This document shows positions 27,894-33,760 of a DNA stretch of 64,000 bases, in pieces. The notes below the pieces were generated by a model that searched no databases, had not been told where the DNA came from, and saw nothing but the letters and a program-made list of their open reading frames with translations. The first letter of the stretch is position 1, and each line of letters begins with the position of its first letter. Both the position numbers and the translations under genes were made by a program. The DNA lies in contig JABIZD010000041.1 in assembly GCA_018666555.1 (NCBI GenBank), positions 1-64,000 of the forward strand, in the 5' to 3' direction. This DNA comes from Gammaproteobacteria bacterium. Lineage in GTDB: Bacteria > Pseudomonadota > Gammaproteobacteria > Pseudomonadales > Azotimanducaceae.

Positions 27894-28880
27894 TTAATCG
27901 AGCACTCCGCGTATAGACAAACCCGCTGCCTGATAGACCCGGTCGATCAAGGTCATCTGTGATACTGCATCACGACCATCGGTCAGCACCGGCTCATTGC
28001 TTATCACAGCGGCAGTAAAAGCATCAAGCTGATAATCATAACTACTCCGCAGAGCAAAGGTTTCGGAGGTCTTTTTATCGCCTAGCTGAAGATCCAGGCT
28101 ATGCCCAATCTGCGGGACCAGGGGATTGCTAACCCGCATGGAACCGTTTGCACCGATAACCAGTAATTCTGCCTTGAATTGACCACCGGCGCGCATATCA
28201 CCCGATGTCCTGGCACGAATCCCACCCGGGAAAAGCAATCTGGTTTCGAGATAGAGATCGACTTGTTCCGGCCCCGTTTCTGCAACTGCAGTTACTTCCA
28301 GGGGATCTGACCCAAGCAAATGGCGTACCCAACTCAGAGGATAACATCCTATGTCCATGGTTACGCCGCCGCCAGTATGATACATCATACGAATATCATC
28401 TTCAGCGACAGGCCCCTTGACATGAAAATCTGCTTCGATCGAAGCAAGTTTACCCAGTACTCCGGAACGAACAATCTCAACGGCCCGCACAAACAAAGGA
28501 TGATAACGATAGTGAAAAGCATCCATCAAAACCAAGCCAGACCGTGCAGCGACTGCCTGCATTTCTATCGCCTCGGCCGCATTCAAGGCCAGGGACTTTT
28601 CACAAAGAACATGTTTACCCGCCTCCAGAGCCTTGATGGTCCATTCATGGTGAGCCGAAATGGGTAGCGGAATATAAACTGCAGTGACCGCCGGGTCCGC
28701 TATCACATCGGCATAATGTTCATGCACCGTGGAGATACCATGCGTATCGGCAAAAATTTTCGCTCTGGAAACATCCCTGGCTGCGACACACTGCACTTCG
28801 ACCTGCAGGTTGTCTTGCACTGGTTTGATAATCGCCTGGGGGGCTATTTTTGCCGCCCCTAGAATTCCTAATCTAATCAT
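27894..28880 (-). CDS. Gfo/Idh/MocA family oxidoreductase
   Basis: A 328-residue NAD(P)-dependent sugar or polyol dehydrogenase-type protein. The Rossmann start is LGILGAAKIAP at 4-14. The usual EKP motif appears as Glu94-Lys95-Ser96 in VLCEKSLALN, and the substrate segment GGVTMDIGCYPLSWVRHLLG is near 170-190. Lys95 is the expected catalytic lysine; the Pro-to-Ser change is unusual but tolerated in some members. Family reactions are oxidation or reduction of sugars, inositol or trans-dihydrodiols. No sugar genes are adjacent. It lies between the phosphotransferase and NIPSNAP genes on the same strand, with gaps of 215 and 83 bases. Confidence 0.88.
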   Translation of the reverse strand: MIRLGILGAAKIAPQAIIKPVQDNLQVEVQCVAARDVSRAKIFADTHGISTVHEHYADVIADPAVTAVYIPLPISAHHEWTIKALEAGKHVLCEKSLALNAAEAIEMQAVAARSGLVLMDAFHYRYHPLFVRAVEIVRSGVLGKLASIEADFHVKGPVAEDDIRMMYHTGGGVTMDIGCYPLSWVRHLLGSDPLEVTAVAETGPEQVDLYLETRLLFPGGIRARTSGDMRAGGQFKAELLVIGANGSMRVSNPLVPQIGHSLDLQLGDKKTSETFALRSSYDYQLDAFTAAVISNEPVLTDGRDAVSQMTLIDRVYQAAGLSIRGVLD

Positions 28881-28963: not shown

Positions 28964-29317
28964 CTAACCCAACGATTCCATGAAACGAGCGTTCATATGC
29001 AGATAAGCCTTCGCATTAGGATGCTTCGACCAAATTTCCTGCCATTCGCTACCTGCCATCGTCTTTCTGAAAACCGCTTCCCGATGCGCTTTATCCCGCC
29101 AACGAATTATCCAGCAGACATTTGCCTGACCATTGCTCGACACAATCGGGTTTGATCCACTCACTTCTGCTTCCAGACCAGTATCTACCCAGAAATCTAT
29201 TACATCCAGGTTCCGCTTCAGCCATGGCGCTGCCAGATCCTCAGCCCATACCTTATATTCCTTGAGCCACGCAGTTTCTATCGTATAGTCTCTTATCTCA
29301 ACAATACCGGTACCCAT
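28964..29317 (-). CDS. NIPSNAP family protein
   Basis: A 117-residue dimeric alpha/beta barrel protein. It opens VEIRDYTI, followed by a WLKEYKVWAEDLAAPWLKR helix, and later NVCWIIRWRDKAHREAVF and a WQEIWSKHPN segment, the usual order in NIPSNAP proteins. ATG at 29317 was chosen because AAGGAGAAGGAGC runs directly up to it. The biochemical role of the family is poorly known; related dimeric barrels bind heme or small molecules. It may be co-transcribed with the Gfo/Idh/MocA gene 83 bases downstream. Confidence 0.85.
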   Translation of the reverse strand: MGTGIVEIRDYTIETAWLKEYKVWAEDLAAPWLKRNLDVIDFWVDTGLEAEVSGSNPIVSSNGQANVCWIIRWRDKAHREAVFRKTMAGSEWQEIWSKHPNAKAYLHMNARFMESLG

Positions 29318-29362
29318 GCTCCTTCTCCTTGCTGCAAACATTGATTAAAAGGTAACTAAATT

Positions 29363-29589: not shown

Positions 29590-30249
29590 GTGCAACAGTT
29601 ACAAGAATTCAAACTCCTGCAGCACGCGCTTATACTTCTGGGCTGTATTGCCTTTGCGCTGTTCATGCTAATCGATAAAGGCCTGTTACAACTTGCGCTG
29701 TTATCAGATAGCAGTCGGCTTTCGGGAGTAATAATAATTATATATGGAGCAGCCACACTGCACTGGTTGTGGTTATGCTATCAACTGTCTCTTGAGCAGC
29801 AGTATATTAATCGTTGGCTGAATAAAGCAGAGACTCAGGGTAATAACCAGACCTCTATTCATCGCTTGCGTGAATCCATGTCTAGTTCAACCTCAACAGA
29901 CTGGGATAGTGATATCAACCTGCTAGCCGATGAATTAACCAATCGGCATGCTTTGGGCCATTTTGCTGCAGATACGCTGATCAAATTAGGCTTAATTGGC
30001 ACTGTAATCGGCTTCATACTGATGCTGCAACCCATTGGCGATATCAAACAGTTTGATCCATCACTCATGCAGCAGTTACTGACTGCGATGAGCTCTGGAA
30101 TGGCGGTTGCGCTTTACACCACGCTAACGGGACTCATTACCAGCATATTACTAAAAATTCAGTACTATCTTGCGGATGAAACGCTAACCCAGATTGTCAA
30201 CACGATGATGCAAATGAATCGAGAAGTAGATCATAGTCATGCGCCATAG
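29590..30249 (+). CDS. MotA/TolQ/ExbB-like proton channel subunit (first gene of stator-like operon)
   Basis: A 219-residue inner-membrane protein with four predicted helices at about 12-28, 43-65, 127-147 and 164-190 and a 60-residue cytosolic loop between helices 2 and 3. Helices 3 and 4 carry the family signature: IKLGLIGTVIGFILML and SSGMAVALYTTLTGLITSILLK. In MotA, TolQ and ExbB these helices form the pentameric ring around the proton-carrying partner. Four helices with this spacing is MotA-like, but it lacks MotA's large loop and FliG-contact region. GTG at 29590 has AAGGACA eight bases upstream. The stop overlaps the next gene by 11 bases, so the three genes are almost certainly one transcript. 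The energised process is unknown. Confidence 0.82.
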   Translation: MQQLQEFKLLQHALILLGCIAFALFMLIDKGLLQLALLSDSSRLSGVIIIIYGAATLHWLWLCYQLSLEQQYINRWLNKAETQGNNQTSIHRLRESMSSSTSTDWDSDINLLADELTNRHALGHFAADTLIKLGLIGTVIGFILMLQPIGDIKQFDPSLMQQLLTAMSSGMAVALYTTLTGLITSILLKIQYYLADETLTQIVNTMMQMNREVDHSHAP

Positions 30250-30856
30250 AGTACTTTCGAATCAGCATGGCCAGGATGCCTTTACGGACCTGCTATTTAA
30301 TGCCCTGCTCGGCTTCGTATTCATGTTTGCAATGGCATTTATGATGATTAGCAATCCGGAGAAGTCAGGAAATATTGATTCCAAGGCTGAAATGCTGATT
30401 ACCATACGCTGGCCAGACAATCATCCCGATGACGTCGATGCCGTCATCGAGGACCCTCGCGGTGAACTAGTCTGGTACTACAATCGAGACTCAGGGTTGA
30501 TGCACCTCGACCGCGATGACAGAGGCCTGTTCGCAGATCAAATTGAAATAGCCGGTGCTACCGTGCGCAACCCCCTGAACCAGGAAACCGTCACAGTGCG
30601 AGGCATACAAGCAGGCGAATATGTAGTCAATCTGTTGCATTTTAAGGCCAACTACAATGAGCCTCTAGATGTGAGTGTAAAAGTCGAGAAGCTAAACCCT
30701 TCCGTATCGGTTATTTATTACGGCGAACACCAACTCAACGGCAGTGGTGATGAGAAAACTGCTATTCGCTTCACCCTTGATGCCGAGGGCAACCTGCTTA
30801 ATACCAACCAGATTCCCAAAGAACTGCTCACCCGGGCGACGAGCAAACCGGCTTGA
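30239..30856 (+). CDS. MotB/ExbD-like single-span protein with DUF2135-like periplasmic domain
   Basis: A 205-residue protein. A short cytosolic tail leads into one membrane helix (about 15-37) that begins Asp-Ala-Phe-Thr-Asp, with Asp17 where MotB and ExbD/TolR carry the proton-transfer aspartate. The periplasmic part is not a peptidoglycan-binding OmpA domain. Residues 60-150 show DDVDAVIEDPRG (64-75), MHLDRDDRG (88-96) and a GEYVVNLLHF strand (126-135), resembling the Asp-rich, possibly calcium-binding DUF2135 beta-sandwich. This resemblance is from memory and was not searched. It overlaps the upstream channel gene by 11 bases and the downstream gene by 4 (TTGA). It probably pairs with the channel subunit to form a stator. 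Confidence 0.78.
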   Translation: MRHRVLSNQHGQDAFTDLLFNALLGFVFMFAMAFMMISNPEKSGNIDSKAEMLITIRWPDNHPDDVDAVIEDPRGELVWYYNRDSGLMHLDRDDRGLFADQIEIAGATVRNPLNQETVTVRGIQAGEYVVNLLHFKANYNEPLDVSVKVEKLNPSVSVIYYGEHQLNGSGDEKTAIRFTLDAEGNLLNTNQIPKELLTRATSKPA

Positions 30857-31425
30857 ACGCTTCCATCCCGTTAATCACAGGTTACATCCTCATAGCAGTA
30901 TTGCTGCTAATGTCTTTAATCTGGGCTGGCTATAGAACCCGTTATAAAATTGCCTCAATTATCCTCGTCAGTTGCTTCTATATAGCGACTTTCAAGGGTA
31001 TCGAAGATCTGATGGGCTGGCCGACGACAGCAATAACACCGGAGGAATTCAGAACCGTCTGGATCAGTATTGAAGAACCAGACAAACAAAGCCAAACACC
31101 CGGCGCCATCTATTATTGGCTACGCGAACTTGATAACGCGGGAATCCCCAGGCAGGCTCCTCGAGCATACCGGGTTGATTGGAGCGTCCAAACGGCGATG
31201 ATTGCGCAGGCGGCCTTAACTCGGCTCGAACAAGGTGAGATACTAAACGGCCGACAAAGTCGGAATATCCTTAAAAATGAGGAAGCCAATAATAAGAACC
31301 AGCAATCGATAGGTGCTAGCGCTAGAGCCGGCAATCAACAGGGCCGGCCTACTTTTGAATTTACCGCGGTATCCTCACCAACGCTGCCGTTAAAACCCAG
31401 CCCTGAAAGCCAGCTCAGAGACTAA
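30853..31425 (+). CDS. Unknown two-helix membrane protein, third gene of stator-like operon
   Basis: A 190-residue protein with two predicted helices (about 8-27 and 32-50) followed by a soluble domain. No family was recognised. The soluble part has conserved-looking text, ITPEEFRTVWISIEEPDK (61-78), TPGAIYYWLREL (82-93) and PRAYRVDW (103-110), then a low-complexity Asn/Gln/Ala/Ser region and a proline-rich tail. The start is TTG at 30853, sharing bases with the upstream TGA stop in the overlap TTGA, which indicates coupled translation with the stator subunits. By position it may be an assembly or force-coupling partner; that is inference. After the stop is a palindrome at 31460-31480. Confidence 0.72.
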   Translation: MNASIPLITGYILIAVLLLMSLIWAGYRTRYKIASIILVSCFYIATFKGIEDLMGWPTTAITPEEFRTVWISIEEPDKQSQTPGAIYYWLRELDNAGIPRQAPRAYRVDWSVQTAMIAQAALTRLEQGEILNGRQSRNILKNEEANNKNQQSIGASARAGNQQGRPTFEFTAVSSPTLPLKPSPESQLRD

Positions 31426-31546: not shown

Positions 31547-33760
31547 TTACTGCCAGGTTAATTGCGCCAATTCAGGTTTTTTATTGCCGAGTGACACTTC
31601 TCTATCCTCATGTGCCCTTGCCCTGACAAACTGATGAATATCCGCTGCCTGCGGGGCTGTTAGCACGTCGCTAAAGCCTGCCATGCCCTTAGAACCGTAG
31701 ATACCGTCAATCACGATCTCATTAAACACCTGATGGGTGGCATCATTCATACGCCTTAAATCGGCGATAGCACCGCCTGAACGAACCACAATGCCATGAC
31801 AAACCGCACAATACTCATTGTAGTGCAGCTCCCCTCTGGCGATGACAGCATCATCCAATTCGGCAACTTCCTGCTCTGGAATCGACCTATCCCGGCGATT
31901 CGGCGCGGCCAGTTCGACCTGTCCGCCCAGTTTGAACACAAGCATGCGTCCAGAGTTATTATAGGTTAAGGAAGCATGTTCCGAGACTGGGGGTAGCGGT
32001 TCGCCACCAAACAGATCACCGCCTCCAGTCCCCGTCAGGATCGAAACGTATTGGACCCCTTGTGACTCAAAGGTAATGGGCGGTGCCAGCATGGAAGTAT
32101 AGGTATTGTATTGCCACAGGATCTCACCATTTTCTTTGTCGTAAGCAGTAAACATACCTAAAGCGTCGCCATGGAAGACCAAGCCCCCTTGTGTTCCTAA
32201 AACGCCACCATTCCAATAATGGGGGATTTCAATGACCCACCTGTCTTCTCCGGTTAGCGGGTCGAACGCTTTCAGGTAGCCTTTCGGTGTGGGCTGCTCA
32301 GCGATGTTTTCAAGTAATGTCTGCGTAATACGCCCAAACTCAATACCGGTATTCCAGCCGCCTGGATTTCGCTTATAAATCCCGGTTTCCTTCCAAGTTT
32401 CCACCATGTCAAAGATAAGGGGGTTATCCTGGGCGGGCAGGTAAACCAATCCCGCAGCAACATCCACAGACATGGCCTGCCAGTTATGCGCACCCAAGGG
32501 CCCGGGTAATACCCATTTAGCATTTTCAGTGTAATCAAGATCAGGGTTTTCAACCGGCCGGCCTGTGGCCAGATCAACACCCGTTGCCCAAGTCACTGTG
32601 GCAAAGGGATTGGCGCGCAGTAATTCTCCATCACTACGGTCAAGCACATAAAAAAAGCCATTTTTAGGCGCTTGTAGAAGCACTTTACGAGCGACCCCAT
32701 CCACTTCCATATCGGCGAGAGCCATATCCTGCACTGCCGTGTAATCCCAGTTATCACCCGGCGTTGTCTGATAGTGCCACTTATACACGCCCGTATCGGC
32801 ATCCAGAGCAACAATAGAAGACAAAAACAGATTATCACCACCCCCGGGTGAACGAATCACCCGAGTCCACGGTGAGCCGTTACCTACACCCAGATACAGT
32901 TGGTTAAAGTCCGGATCATAGACAATAGAGTTCCAGACCGTACCGCCTCCGCCGACTTTCCACCATTCTCCGCCTTTCCAGGTCTTGGCAGCCATTTCCA
33001 TCTGTGGATTTTCAAACGGCAATGCTGGATCGCCTGGGACCGTAAAGAACCTCCAGATCTCATCACCATTTTCGGCATCATAGGCCGTAACATATCCGCG
33101 CACACCGAATTCAGCGCCACCGTTACCAATAAAGACCTTACCATTTGCAACCCGGGGAGCTCCGGTAATCGTATAAAACCGACTCCGATCTGTAATCGTA
33201 TCGACTTCCCAGACTTCTTCGCCAGTGCCTGCATCCAAGGCGATCAAACGTCCATCCAGGCTAGCGACGTAGACCTTGCCTTTGTAAACAGCCACACCAC
33301 GATTGACTACATCACAACAGGCCCGCCGACCCCATTCTCGCGGAACCTGGGGGTCATAAAACCAGATTTCCTCGCCATTAACCGCAGAAACCGCATAAAC
33401 CCGACTCCATGAAGTCGTAAAAAACATGACATCATCAACCACTATGGGGGTAGACTCCAGCGCCCGATTGGTCCCCATATCCTTGTACCAGGCCAGACCG
33501 AGGTCTGAAACGTTGCTTTTATTGATCTGCGTCAATGGTGAAAAACGCTGTTCCTCATAGGTCCGGCCATGCGCAAGCCAGTTTCCTGGCTCAGATTCTG
33601 CACTTATAATTCTCTCATCATCAATTAGGCCAATCGATACTTCTGGGATGTCGGTATCCTGCGGCGCCACTGGAGCCTGGGCCGACTCATCCTGGGATGA
33701 TGAAAAATAAAGCAATGCAGAAATTGCAATAAGGCCGACTATCAAACTTGTTCTATTCAA
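31547..33760 (-). CDS. PQQ-dependent quinohemoprotein alcohol dehydrogenase
   Basis: A 737-residue periplasmic enzyme with an eight-bladed PQQ propeller and a C-terminal cytochrome c domain. Residues 8-20 are a hydrophobic export or anchor segment. The rare vicinal disulfide of PQQ alcohol dehydrogenases is Cys148-Cys149 in RRACCDVV. Tryptophan-docking repeats are seen (GEEIW, GEEVW, GDEIW, GEILW). The heme site is CAVCH at 651-655, with Met in GMAGF as likely sixth ligand. The start is TTG at 33760 with AAAGGGG about seven bases upstream. It oxidises alcohols to aldehydes and passes electrons to a cytochrome. No PQQ biosynthesis genes are in the window. It may oxidise the alcohols formed by CYP153, which is inference. 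Confidence 0.93.
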   Translation of the reverse strand: MNRTSLIVGLIAISALLYFSSSQDESAQAPVAPQDTDIPEVSIGLIDDERIISAESEPGNWLAHGRTYEEQRFSPLTQINKSNVSDLGLAWYKDMGTNRALESTPIVVDDVMFFTTSWSRVYAVSAVNGEEIWFYDPQVPREWGRRACCDVVNRGVAVYKGKVYVASLDGRLIALDAGTGEEVWEVDTITDRSRFYTITGAPRVANGKVFIGNGGAEFGVRGYVTAYDAENGDEIWRFFTVPGDPALPFENPQMEMAAKTWKGGEWWKVGGGGTVWNSIVYDPDFNQLYLGVGNGSPWTRVIRSPGGGDNLFLSSIVALDADTGVYKWHYQTTPGDNWDYTAVQDMALADMEVDGVARKVLLQAPKNGFFYVLDRSDGELLRANPFATVTWATGVDLATGRPVENPDLDYTENAKWVLPGPLGAHNWQAMSVDVAAGLVYLPAQDNPLIFDMVETWKETGIYKRNPGGWNTGIEFGRITQTLLENIAEQPTPKGYLKAFDPLTGEDRWVIEIPHYWNGGVLGTQGGLVFHGDALGMFTAYDKENGEILWQYNTYTSMLAPPITFESQGVQYVSILTGTGGGDLFGGEPLPPVSEHASLTYNNSGRMLVFKLGGQVELAAPNRRDRSIPEQEVAELDDAVIARGELHYNEYCAVCHGIVVRSGGAIADLRRMNDATHQVFNEIVIDGIYGSKGMAGFSDVLTAPQAADIHQFVRARAHEDREVSLGNKKPELAQLTWQ

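Follow-up and report, generated by a model that had tools for sequence, protein, structure and literature searches.

Three overlapping genes of a gammaproteobacterial contig, here called A, B and C, belong to a family that would form proton-driven stator-type machines in the inner membrane, probably serving periplasmic PQQ enzymes in the lineage of this bacterium; we give this reading a probability of about 55%. The operon occupies positions 29590-31425 of the window, the whole stretch of 64,000 nucleotides that was analysed. Gene A (29590..30249, plus strand, GTG start) encodes 219 aa, gene B (30239..30856, plus strand, ATG start) 205 aa and gene C (30853..31425, plus strand, TTG start) 190 aa. 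The ORF coordinates bear out the initial annotation, which had described three overlapping plus-strand genes with overlaps of 11 bases (A/B) and 4 bases (B/C). Hydropathy supports four membrane segments for A, a single one for B (13-41) and two for C. Upstream lie a divergent ORF of 125 aa (28964-29341), which has no match in Pfam and looks NIPSNAP-like by eye, and a gene for a GFO/IDH/MocA oxidoreductase (27894-28880); synteny of the two with the operon is limited to close relatives.

The product of gene A matches MotA_ExbB (PF01618; E=6.8e-11, 42.5 bits against a cut-off of 22.9). A second and weaker Pfam match, to AWPM-19 (E 0.018), falls below its cut-off, and no NCBIfam model is matched over its cut-off. 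The PF01618 match and the four hydrophobic segments agree with the earlier description of A as a four-helix MotA/TolQ-like channel. Two threonines, Thr138 in the GT motif of TM3 (30001..30003, plus strand) and Thr178 in TM4 (30121..30123, plus strand; invariant in family alignment A2), align with conserved threonines of the other MotA_ExbB proteins of the same genome, Thr178 with their TT/AT motif. Ser169 (30094..30096, plus strand) sits at the start of TM4 and is replaced by Asp or Glu in some of the relatives considered below. The genome holds seven MotA_ExbB matches, six of them besides A, and four ExbD matches, so the A-B-C set is extra to the Ton/Tol-type genes. Is A, then, a copy of one of the known channel proteins? 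A flagellar MotA/PomA was rejected, the best match of this kind, PRK08990 (PomA), reaching 20.6 bits against a cut-off of 341, and TolQ/ExbB was rejected as well (TolQ 19.7 bits against 221; exbB2 13.5 against 135.35). A does resemble ZorA of ZorAB in giving weak matches (PADLOC best E=9.7e-6), but its 219 aa fall well short of the ZorA models (383-699 positions where listed), and Zorya was rejected with ZorA at 16.2 bits against a cut-off of 100 and no ZorB match in B or C. A search for plasmid copies of A at E<=1e-5 gave none. In one family (f12: L097, L098, L099) Thr138 of A is a Lys and Asp17 of B is kept.

That Asp17 (GAC; 30287..30289, plus strand) is the candidate proton carrier of B. 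It lies in the only helix of the protein and aligns with the Asp of three ExbD/TolR-type proteins from the same genome, which upholds its earlier placement as in ExbD. In a recent review, ExbD Asp25 and ExbB Thr148/Thr181 are termed essential (PMC12905483). As a whole, B has no match in Pfam, NCBIfam or PADLOC at E<=1; ExbBD/TolQR was rejected on this side too, with no PF02472 in B at that Pfam threshold though four other ExbD genes were found. The AlphaFold model of B (pLDDT 81.7) has a helix at 14-37 followed by a beta-rich domain, and residues 41-202 (30359..30844, plus strand) are predicted to form a TerD-like beta sandwich with many invariant Asp. Foldseek found no match to the model at E<0.001. 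VIA-align placed 3ibz, labelled TerD, at Z 10.6 (138 residues, rmsd 4.2 Å), and its top five also hold 2qz7 (labelled TerD, Z 8.9), the unlabelled protein SAV2460 (2qng, Z 9.0), a radial spoke chain (7jtk_A, Z 9.0) and 9a6r_B (Z 8.6), the last two not labelled TerD; from rank six on, Z is at most 5.9. MotB, ExbD and TolR structures do not figure among the listed fold matches, an absence that is no proof. The predicted fold of the periplasmic domain and its Asp-rich loops thus resemble TerD, whereas none of 34 B members matches PF02342 (TerD), and the profile-profile comparison with hhalign, collinear as it is, is not significant (best E 0.11, probability 0.5%). Weak matches to other families were seen for DUF2135 in one of the 34 members (best E 0.13) and for PPC in eight (best E 0.038). 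Residues invariant in these 34 sequences (alignment A1) include W58, D60, H62, P63, D64, D65, D67, D93, D94 and E116; not all of them are kept in the wider B set, H62 for example being changed in L098 and L099. TerD is reported to bind Ca2+ (PMC8123226), and by analogy the periplasmic domain of B may possibly do so. The same domain gives weak matches to phrog_1735, a phage protein family of unassigned function (E 8e-4), and to a virion structural protein (PDB 11pb_C, E 0.46).

C had been called a two-helix protein of no recognised family, and so it appears: two hydrophobic segments, a periplasmic domain with a near-invariant C-terminal PxK (family alignment A3), no match in Pfam, NCBIfam or PADLOC at E<=1 and, for the model (pLDDT 84.5), no Foldseek match at E<0.001. 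In its best fold match (Z 7.3) the two helices align with part of a transcription complex, and further rows, OB-like and eIF5A, cover the remainder; neither is informative. In L099 (10172-10882) C is followed by a fourth gene, about 235 aa long, and relatives of this gene come after C in L097, L098, L149, L151, L154, L158, L162 and L167; the copies in G231 and G246 have no Pfam match, and that in G231 no NCBIfam match.

How widely do the three genes travel together? A search of genome_contigs with the B pattern matched 251 stretches, of which 202 encode a relative, a number that sets chance aside as the source of the triad. Among the best 80 of these 202 loci, A and C are each present in 68 and the full set of three in 65, and so the three-gene order proposed for checking in other genomes was recovered. 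The genes overlap or almost touch in most relatives; L019 has an additional gene between A and B. Where A (L022, L038, L080) or C (L030, L062, L079) is missing, the locus is at the end of a contig or stretch. Nine loci from alphaproteobacterial MAGs (L039-L044, L047, L055, L066) have neither A nor C in the fetched stretch, and in L055 a second B-like domain follows directly after B, with an apparent signal peptide in place of the helix. The genome samples have B in 16 of 398 genomes at phylum level (14 strong and two weak, G103 and G194), in four of 194 at order level and, at E<=0.01, in 40 of 369 at class level (Gammaproteobacteria). All 29 class-sample regions with a strong B also match the A and C profiles; this count excludes the weak-B regions L169-L172, where A is found in L169, L170 and L172 only and C in L170 only. 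On sequence evidence, A-B-C is strongly supported as a distinct stator family.

Variation within the family also concerns membrane charge. The B alignment has 132 rows, many of them close relatives, and 131 show residue 17 (L022 is incomplete). Asp17 stands in 82 of the 131, none of which has Lys at position 21, one helical turn away (Asn21 in the window; 30299..30301, plus strand). The other 49 have Val (43), Ile (1) or Ala (5) at position 17, and every one of the 49 has Lys21. Among rows that could be paired with an A, position 169 of A is Asp or Glu in 34 of 34 with Val/Ile17-Lys21, in none of five with Ala17-Lys21 and in four of 66 with Asp17-Asn21; L170 has an acid there too, and a strict partnership between A169 and Lys21 is in this light only partly true. 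When 73 thinned A+B pairs were placed on a midpoint-rooted tree, those in the Lys state fell into two clades apart from each other, an alphaproteobacterial one of 20 tips (support 0.945) and another of 4 tips in the class of the window (support 1.0), the acid in A accompanying the Asp-to-Lys change in the larger of the two lineages. Such natural switches offer a ready experiment on how these motors use charge. They also bear on whether A-B-C is a motor at all. The TerD-like fold of B would suit a channel, signalling or gated, with periplasmic Ca2+ as its stimulus, and a histidine kinase gene is divergent from the operon in 24 of the best 80 of the 202 loci, with kinase genes also near the operon in L099 and L143. 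Against such a sensor, which we consider very improbable, a kinase of this kind was seen neither beside the operon of the window nor in most close relatives, and the stator residues are either kept or altered in a coupled way.

Within the known stators, where does the family fall? In MotAB, the A and B genes are adjacent and encode a four-helix A and a single-helix B with an Asp near the helix start. A-B-C shares these features with MotAB/PomAB but differs in that B has no recognised OmpA-like domain, the cytoplasmic loop of A is short, there is a third gene and, in the neighbourhoods inspected, the genes lie outside flagellar loci. With ExbBD-TonB and TolQR-TolA it shares Asp17, which corresponds to the Asp of ExbD/TolR, and Thr138/Thr178, which correspond to the ExbB/TolQ-type threonines; unlike those systems, A has four helices instead of three, B lacks an ExbD domain and no TonB or TolA partner was recognised. 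In GldLM, an Arg of GldM is the partner of Glu49 of GldL. The Val/Ile17-Lys21 lineage, with its membrane acid in A, resembles this arrangement, as judged by published charge positions only, whereas A differs in bearing a MotA_ExbB domain. Glu49 of GldL, the ring subunit, is the essential acid of that system (PMC8986121, PMC9389320). The generic ion transporters (GIT) are comparable too, being described as non-flagellar A/B pairs whose cytoplasmic domains are condensed and which in many cases have no known function (PMC12505986); A-B-C likewise has a non-flagellar pair and a condensed cytoplasmic domain, while the GIT description, in the available part of that source, includes no TerD-like B, gene C, PQQ link or phage copies (PMC12505986).

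By comparison with these systems, A would form a pentamer round a B dimer and protons would pass via Asp17. What would such a machine act on? Its motion may be exerted on the TerD-like, possibly Ca2+-binding, periplasmic domain of B and on C, and not on peptidoglycan or TonB. The gene neighbourhood points to a customer. The stator-like A and B with their conserved third gene partly sustain the earlier proposal of a compact stator for a new envelope process, which had overlooked the adjoining gene: convergent with A-B-C on the minus strand (31547..33760) is a PQQ-dependent alcohol dehydrogenase with a C-terminal cytochrome c domain (Pfam PQQ and Cytochrome_CBB3) that matches TIGR03075 over cut-off at 608.8 bits. 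A relative of this dehydrogenase lies in the fetched stretch of 24 of the best 80 of the 202 loci, mostly convergent and about 2 kb off; these 24 belong to Gamma- and Alphaproteobacteria and include Pseudomonadales, SAR86, PS1-clade bacteria, Chelativorans and Beijerinckiaceae. Six of the 29 regions of the class sample have a PQQ alcohol dehydrogenase within about 8.5 kb (one of the six, L153, being under the family cut-off), where gene counts and rounded genome sizes predict 0.28; two million random draws never gave as many as six. Co-occurrence in whole genomes agrees, with a dehydrogenase over cut-off in 25 of 36 B-bearing genomes of the class sample and in five of 44 B-lacking ones (Fisher p=1e-7), counts that related genomes inflate. 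The 36 are the 40 B-bearing genomes minus four weak or partial cases (G636, G719, G883, G913), and the 44 were rechecked and have no B. At phylum level, the dehydrogenase is present in all 14 strong B genomes and in 81 of 384 others, two weak B genomes being counted among the latter; ten of the 14 belong to one family, so these counts are not independent.

Other genes of quinoprotein systems are found near the operon as well. In G019 the triad comes after pqqB, pqqC and pqqE, in that order, and an in-frame ATG of A lies two bases past the pqqE stop; pqqD, between pqqC and pqqE, was recognised by eye only. Over their cut-offs are TIGR04558 in G231, TIGR04557 and TIGR04559 in G287, TIGR03866 in L046, and TIGR03864 and TIGR03861 in L058, where TIGR03863 stays below its cut-off. 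Does the family then belong to PQQ synthesis? All ten f49 genomes, G019 and G246 have pqqC; the window clade (G000, G429, G510, G552) and G231 do not. A tie of B to PQQ synthesis was rejected for the lack of pqqC in the window clade, and this clade together with G231 indicates that the family is not, in general, a part of PQQ synthesis or export. The dehydrogenase of the window has a WDYT motif, which we take to mark a Ca-type rather than a lanthanide-type enzyme. Among neighbouring dehydrogenases the motif is WDYT or WDFT in the window clade and in PS1 relatives, WD[YF]D in L099, L143, L149, L158, L162 and L167 and WDLD in L153, and a pattern search gave no motif in L030, L032, L046 and some fragments; a lanthanide link, or a link to any single metal type, was rejected because the motifs vary among loci. 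In Methylomicrobium alcaliphilum, MEALZ_3990/3991, named MotA/TolQ/ExbB, go down when La replaces Ca, as do 13 genes of the MxaFI set (PMC6277846). These two genes may belong to the A-B-C family.

A clade with PQQ dehydrogenases and no pqqC could also be taken to import the cofactor, with A-B-C replacing ExbBD-TonB as an energy source devoted to bringing PQQ or its metal through the outer membrane. In the neighbourhoods inspected no Tol-Pal, ExbBD-TonB or flagellar operon surrounds the triad, as the initial annotation would have it; TonB-receptor-like genes do occur near the operon in L046 (below curated cut-offs) and L099 (putative). We find this uptake role unlikely: B and C have no recognised TonB-like domain, the ten f49 genomes with pqqC carry the operon too, the genome has other ExbB- and ExbD-type genes, and no receptor was recognised among the 20 scanned window proteins besides A, B and C.

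Statistically the PQQ link is strong, but it does not hold throughout the family. Eleven of the 36 B-bearing genomes have no PQQ alcohol dehydrogenase over cut-off, and in four families (f165, f213, f245, f260) B is present and none of the nine genomes tested has the enzyme. Neighbours also differ by lineage. In a second type of neighbourhood, genes for a DUF302 protein, a VWA-FHA protein and an L,D-transpeptidase take the place of the dehydrogenase, as judged by family tests in L150 and by eye in the other loci, and small genomes have housekeeping-like genes around the triad (by eye). This variety, along with the protease and lysozyme genes beside the phage copies described below, would be expected of a general envelope-maintenance stator whose B and C have the cell wall or outer membrane as their target, the PQQ neighbours being local history. 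Such a general role is a real but lesser possibility, since history alone hardly accounts for the excess of dehydrogenases within 8.5 kb in several families or for A-B-C directly behind pqq genes, and B has no recognised cell-wall-binding domain. A service to PQQ enzymes in the window's lineage is, by comparison, moderately supported. In that lineage and several others, the likeliest customer, judging from gene neighbourhood, would be periplasmic PQQ-dependent alcohol oxidation, for example through supply or insertion of PQQ and a metal ion into the dehydrogenase. We infer that a supply of cofactor or metal to the enzyme suits both makers and users of PQQ.

Copies of the triad are not confined to cells. 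A tblastn search turned up relatives of B in 27 phage records, each of them under the name of a Rhizobium or Sinorhizobium phage; the P0002 search of viral_contigs gave no match, though tblastn does give these phage relatives. Across 22 viral or prophage stretches, A and B are present in all 22 and C in 19 (absent in L208-L210), counts to be read knowing that the phage profiles were seeded partly from the same stretches and that L199/L201 and L192/L206 are apparently the same phages. Profile-profile comparison of phage with cellular families gives probabilities of 97-99% for A, 94-97% for C and 99.7% for B (one phage group), and none of the 14 sequences of alignment A4 has lost the helix Asp of B. 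Carriers of the triad include phage 16-3 and phages of 150-170 kb, some classed as Pootjesviridae. Shortened or compact triads were seen in rhizobial phages at L192, L194, L196, L198, L199 and L200, and also at L101, L190 and L191; L101 is a weak match amid phage-like genes (by eye). The triad of the 60-kb phage group has a gene for a trypsin-like protease next to it, and that of L194 and L195 lies downstream of a lysozyme gene. The phage stretches inspected have no PQQ gene annotation. No description of phage-borne stators or of such an operon was found in the literature searched (open-licence PMC papers), and the phage copies would be, as far as these searches show, an unreported case of viruses that carry such a motor.

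A bolder account, which we hold to be doubtful, would join all these strands: a stator family serving quinoproteins, with a Ca2+-binding TerD-type axle that loads PQQ and metal into alcohol dehydrogenases, would have swapped its Asp for a membrane Lys twice, once with gain of an acid in the ring and a passage from a MotB-type to a GldLM-type layout, and rhizobial phages would have taken up the motor in compact form. The delivery of cofactor and metal to periplasmic dehydrogenases is a poorly understood step of PQQ biology. If the main reading, a stator probably serving periplasmic PQQ enzymes, is right, A-B-C would be a branch of the stators with a load other than the flagellum, TonB or Tol, and a candidate machine for how cofactor and metal reach these enzymes.
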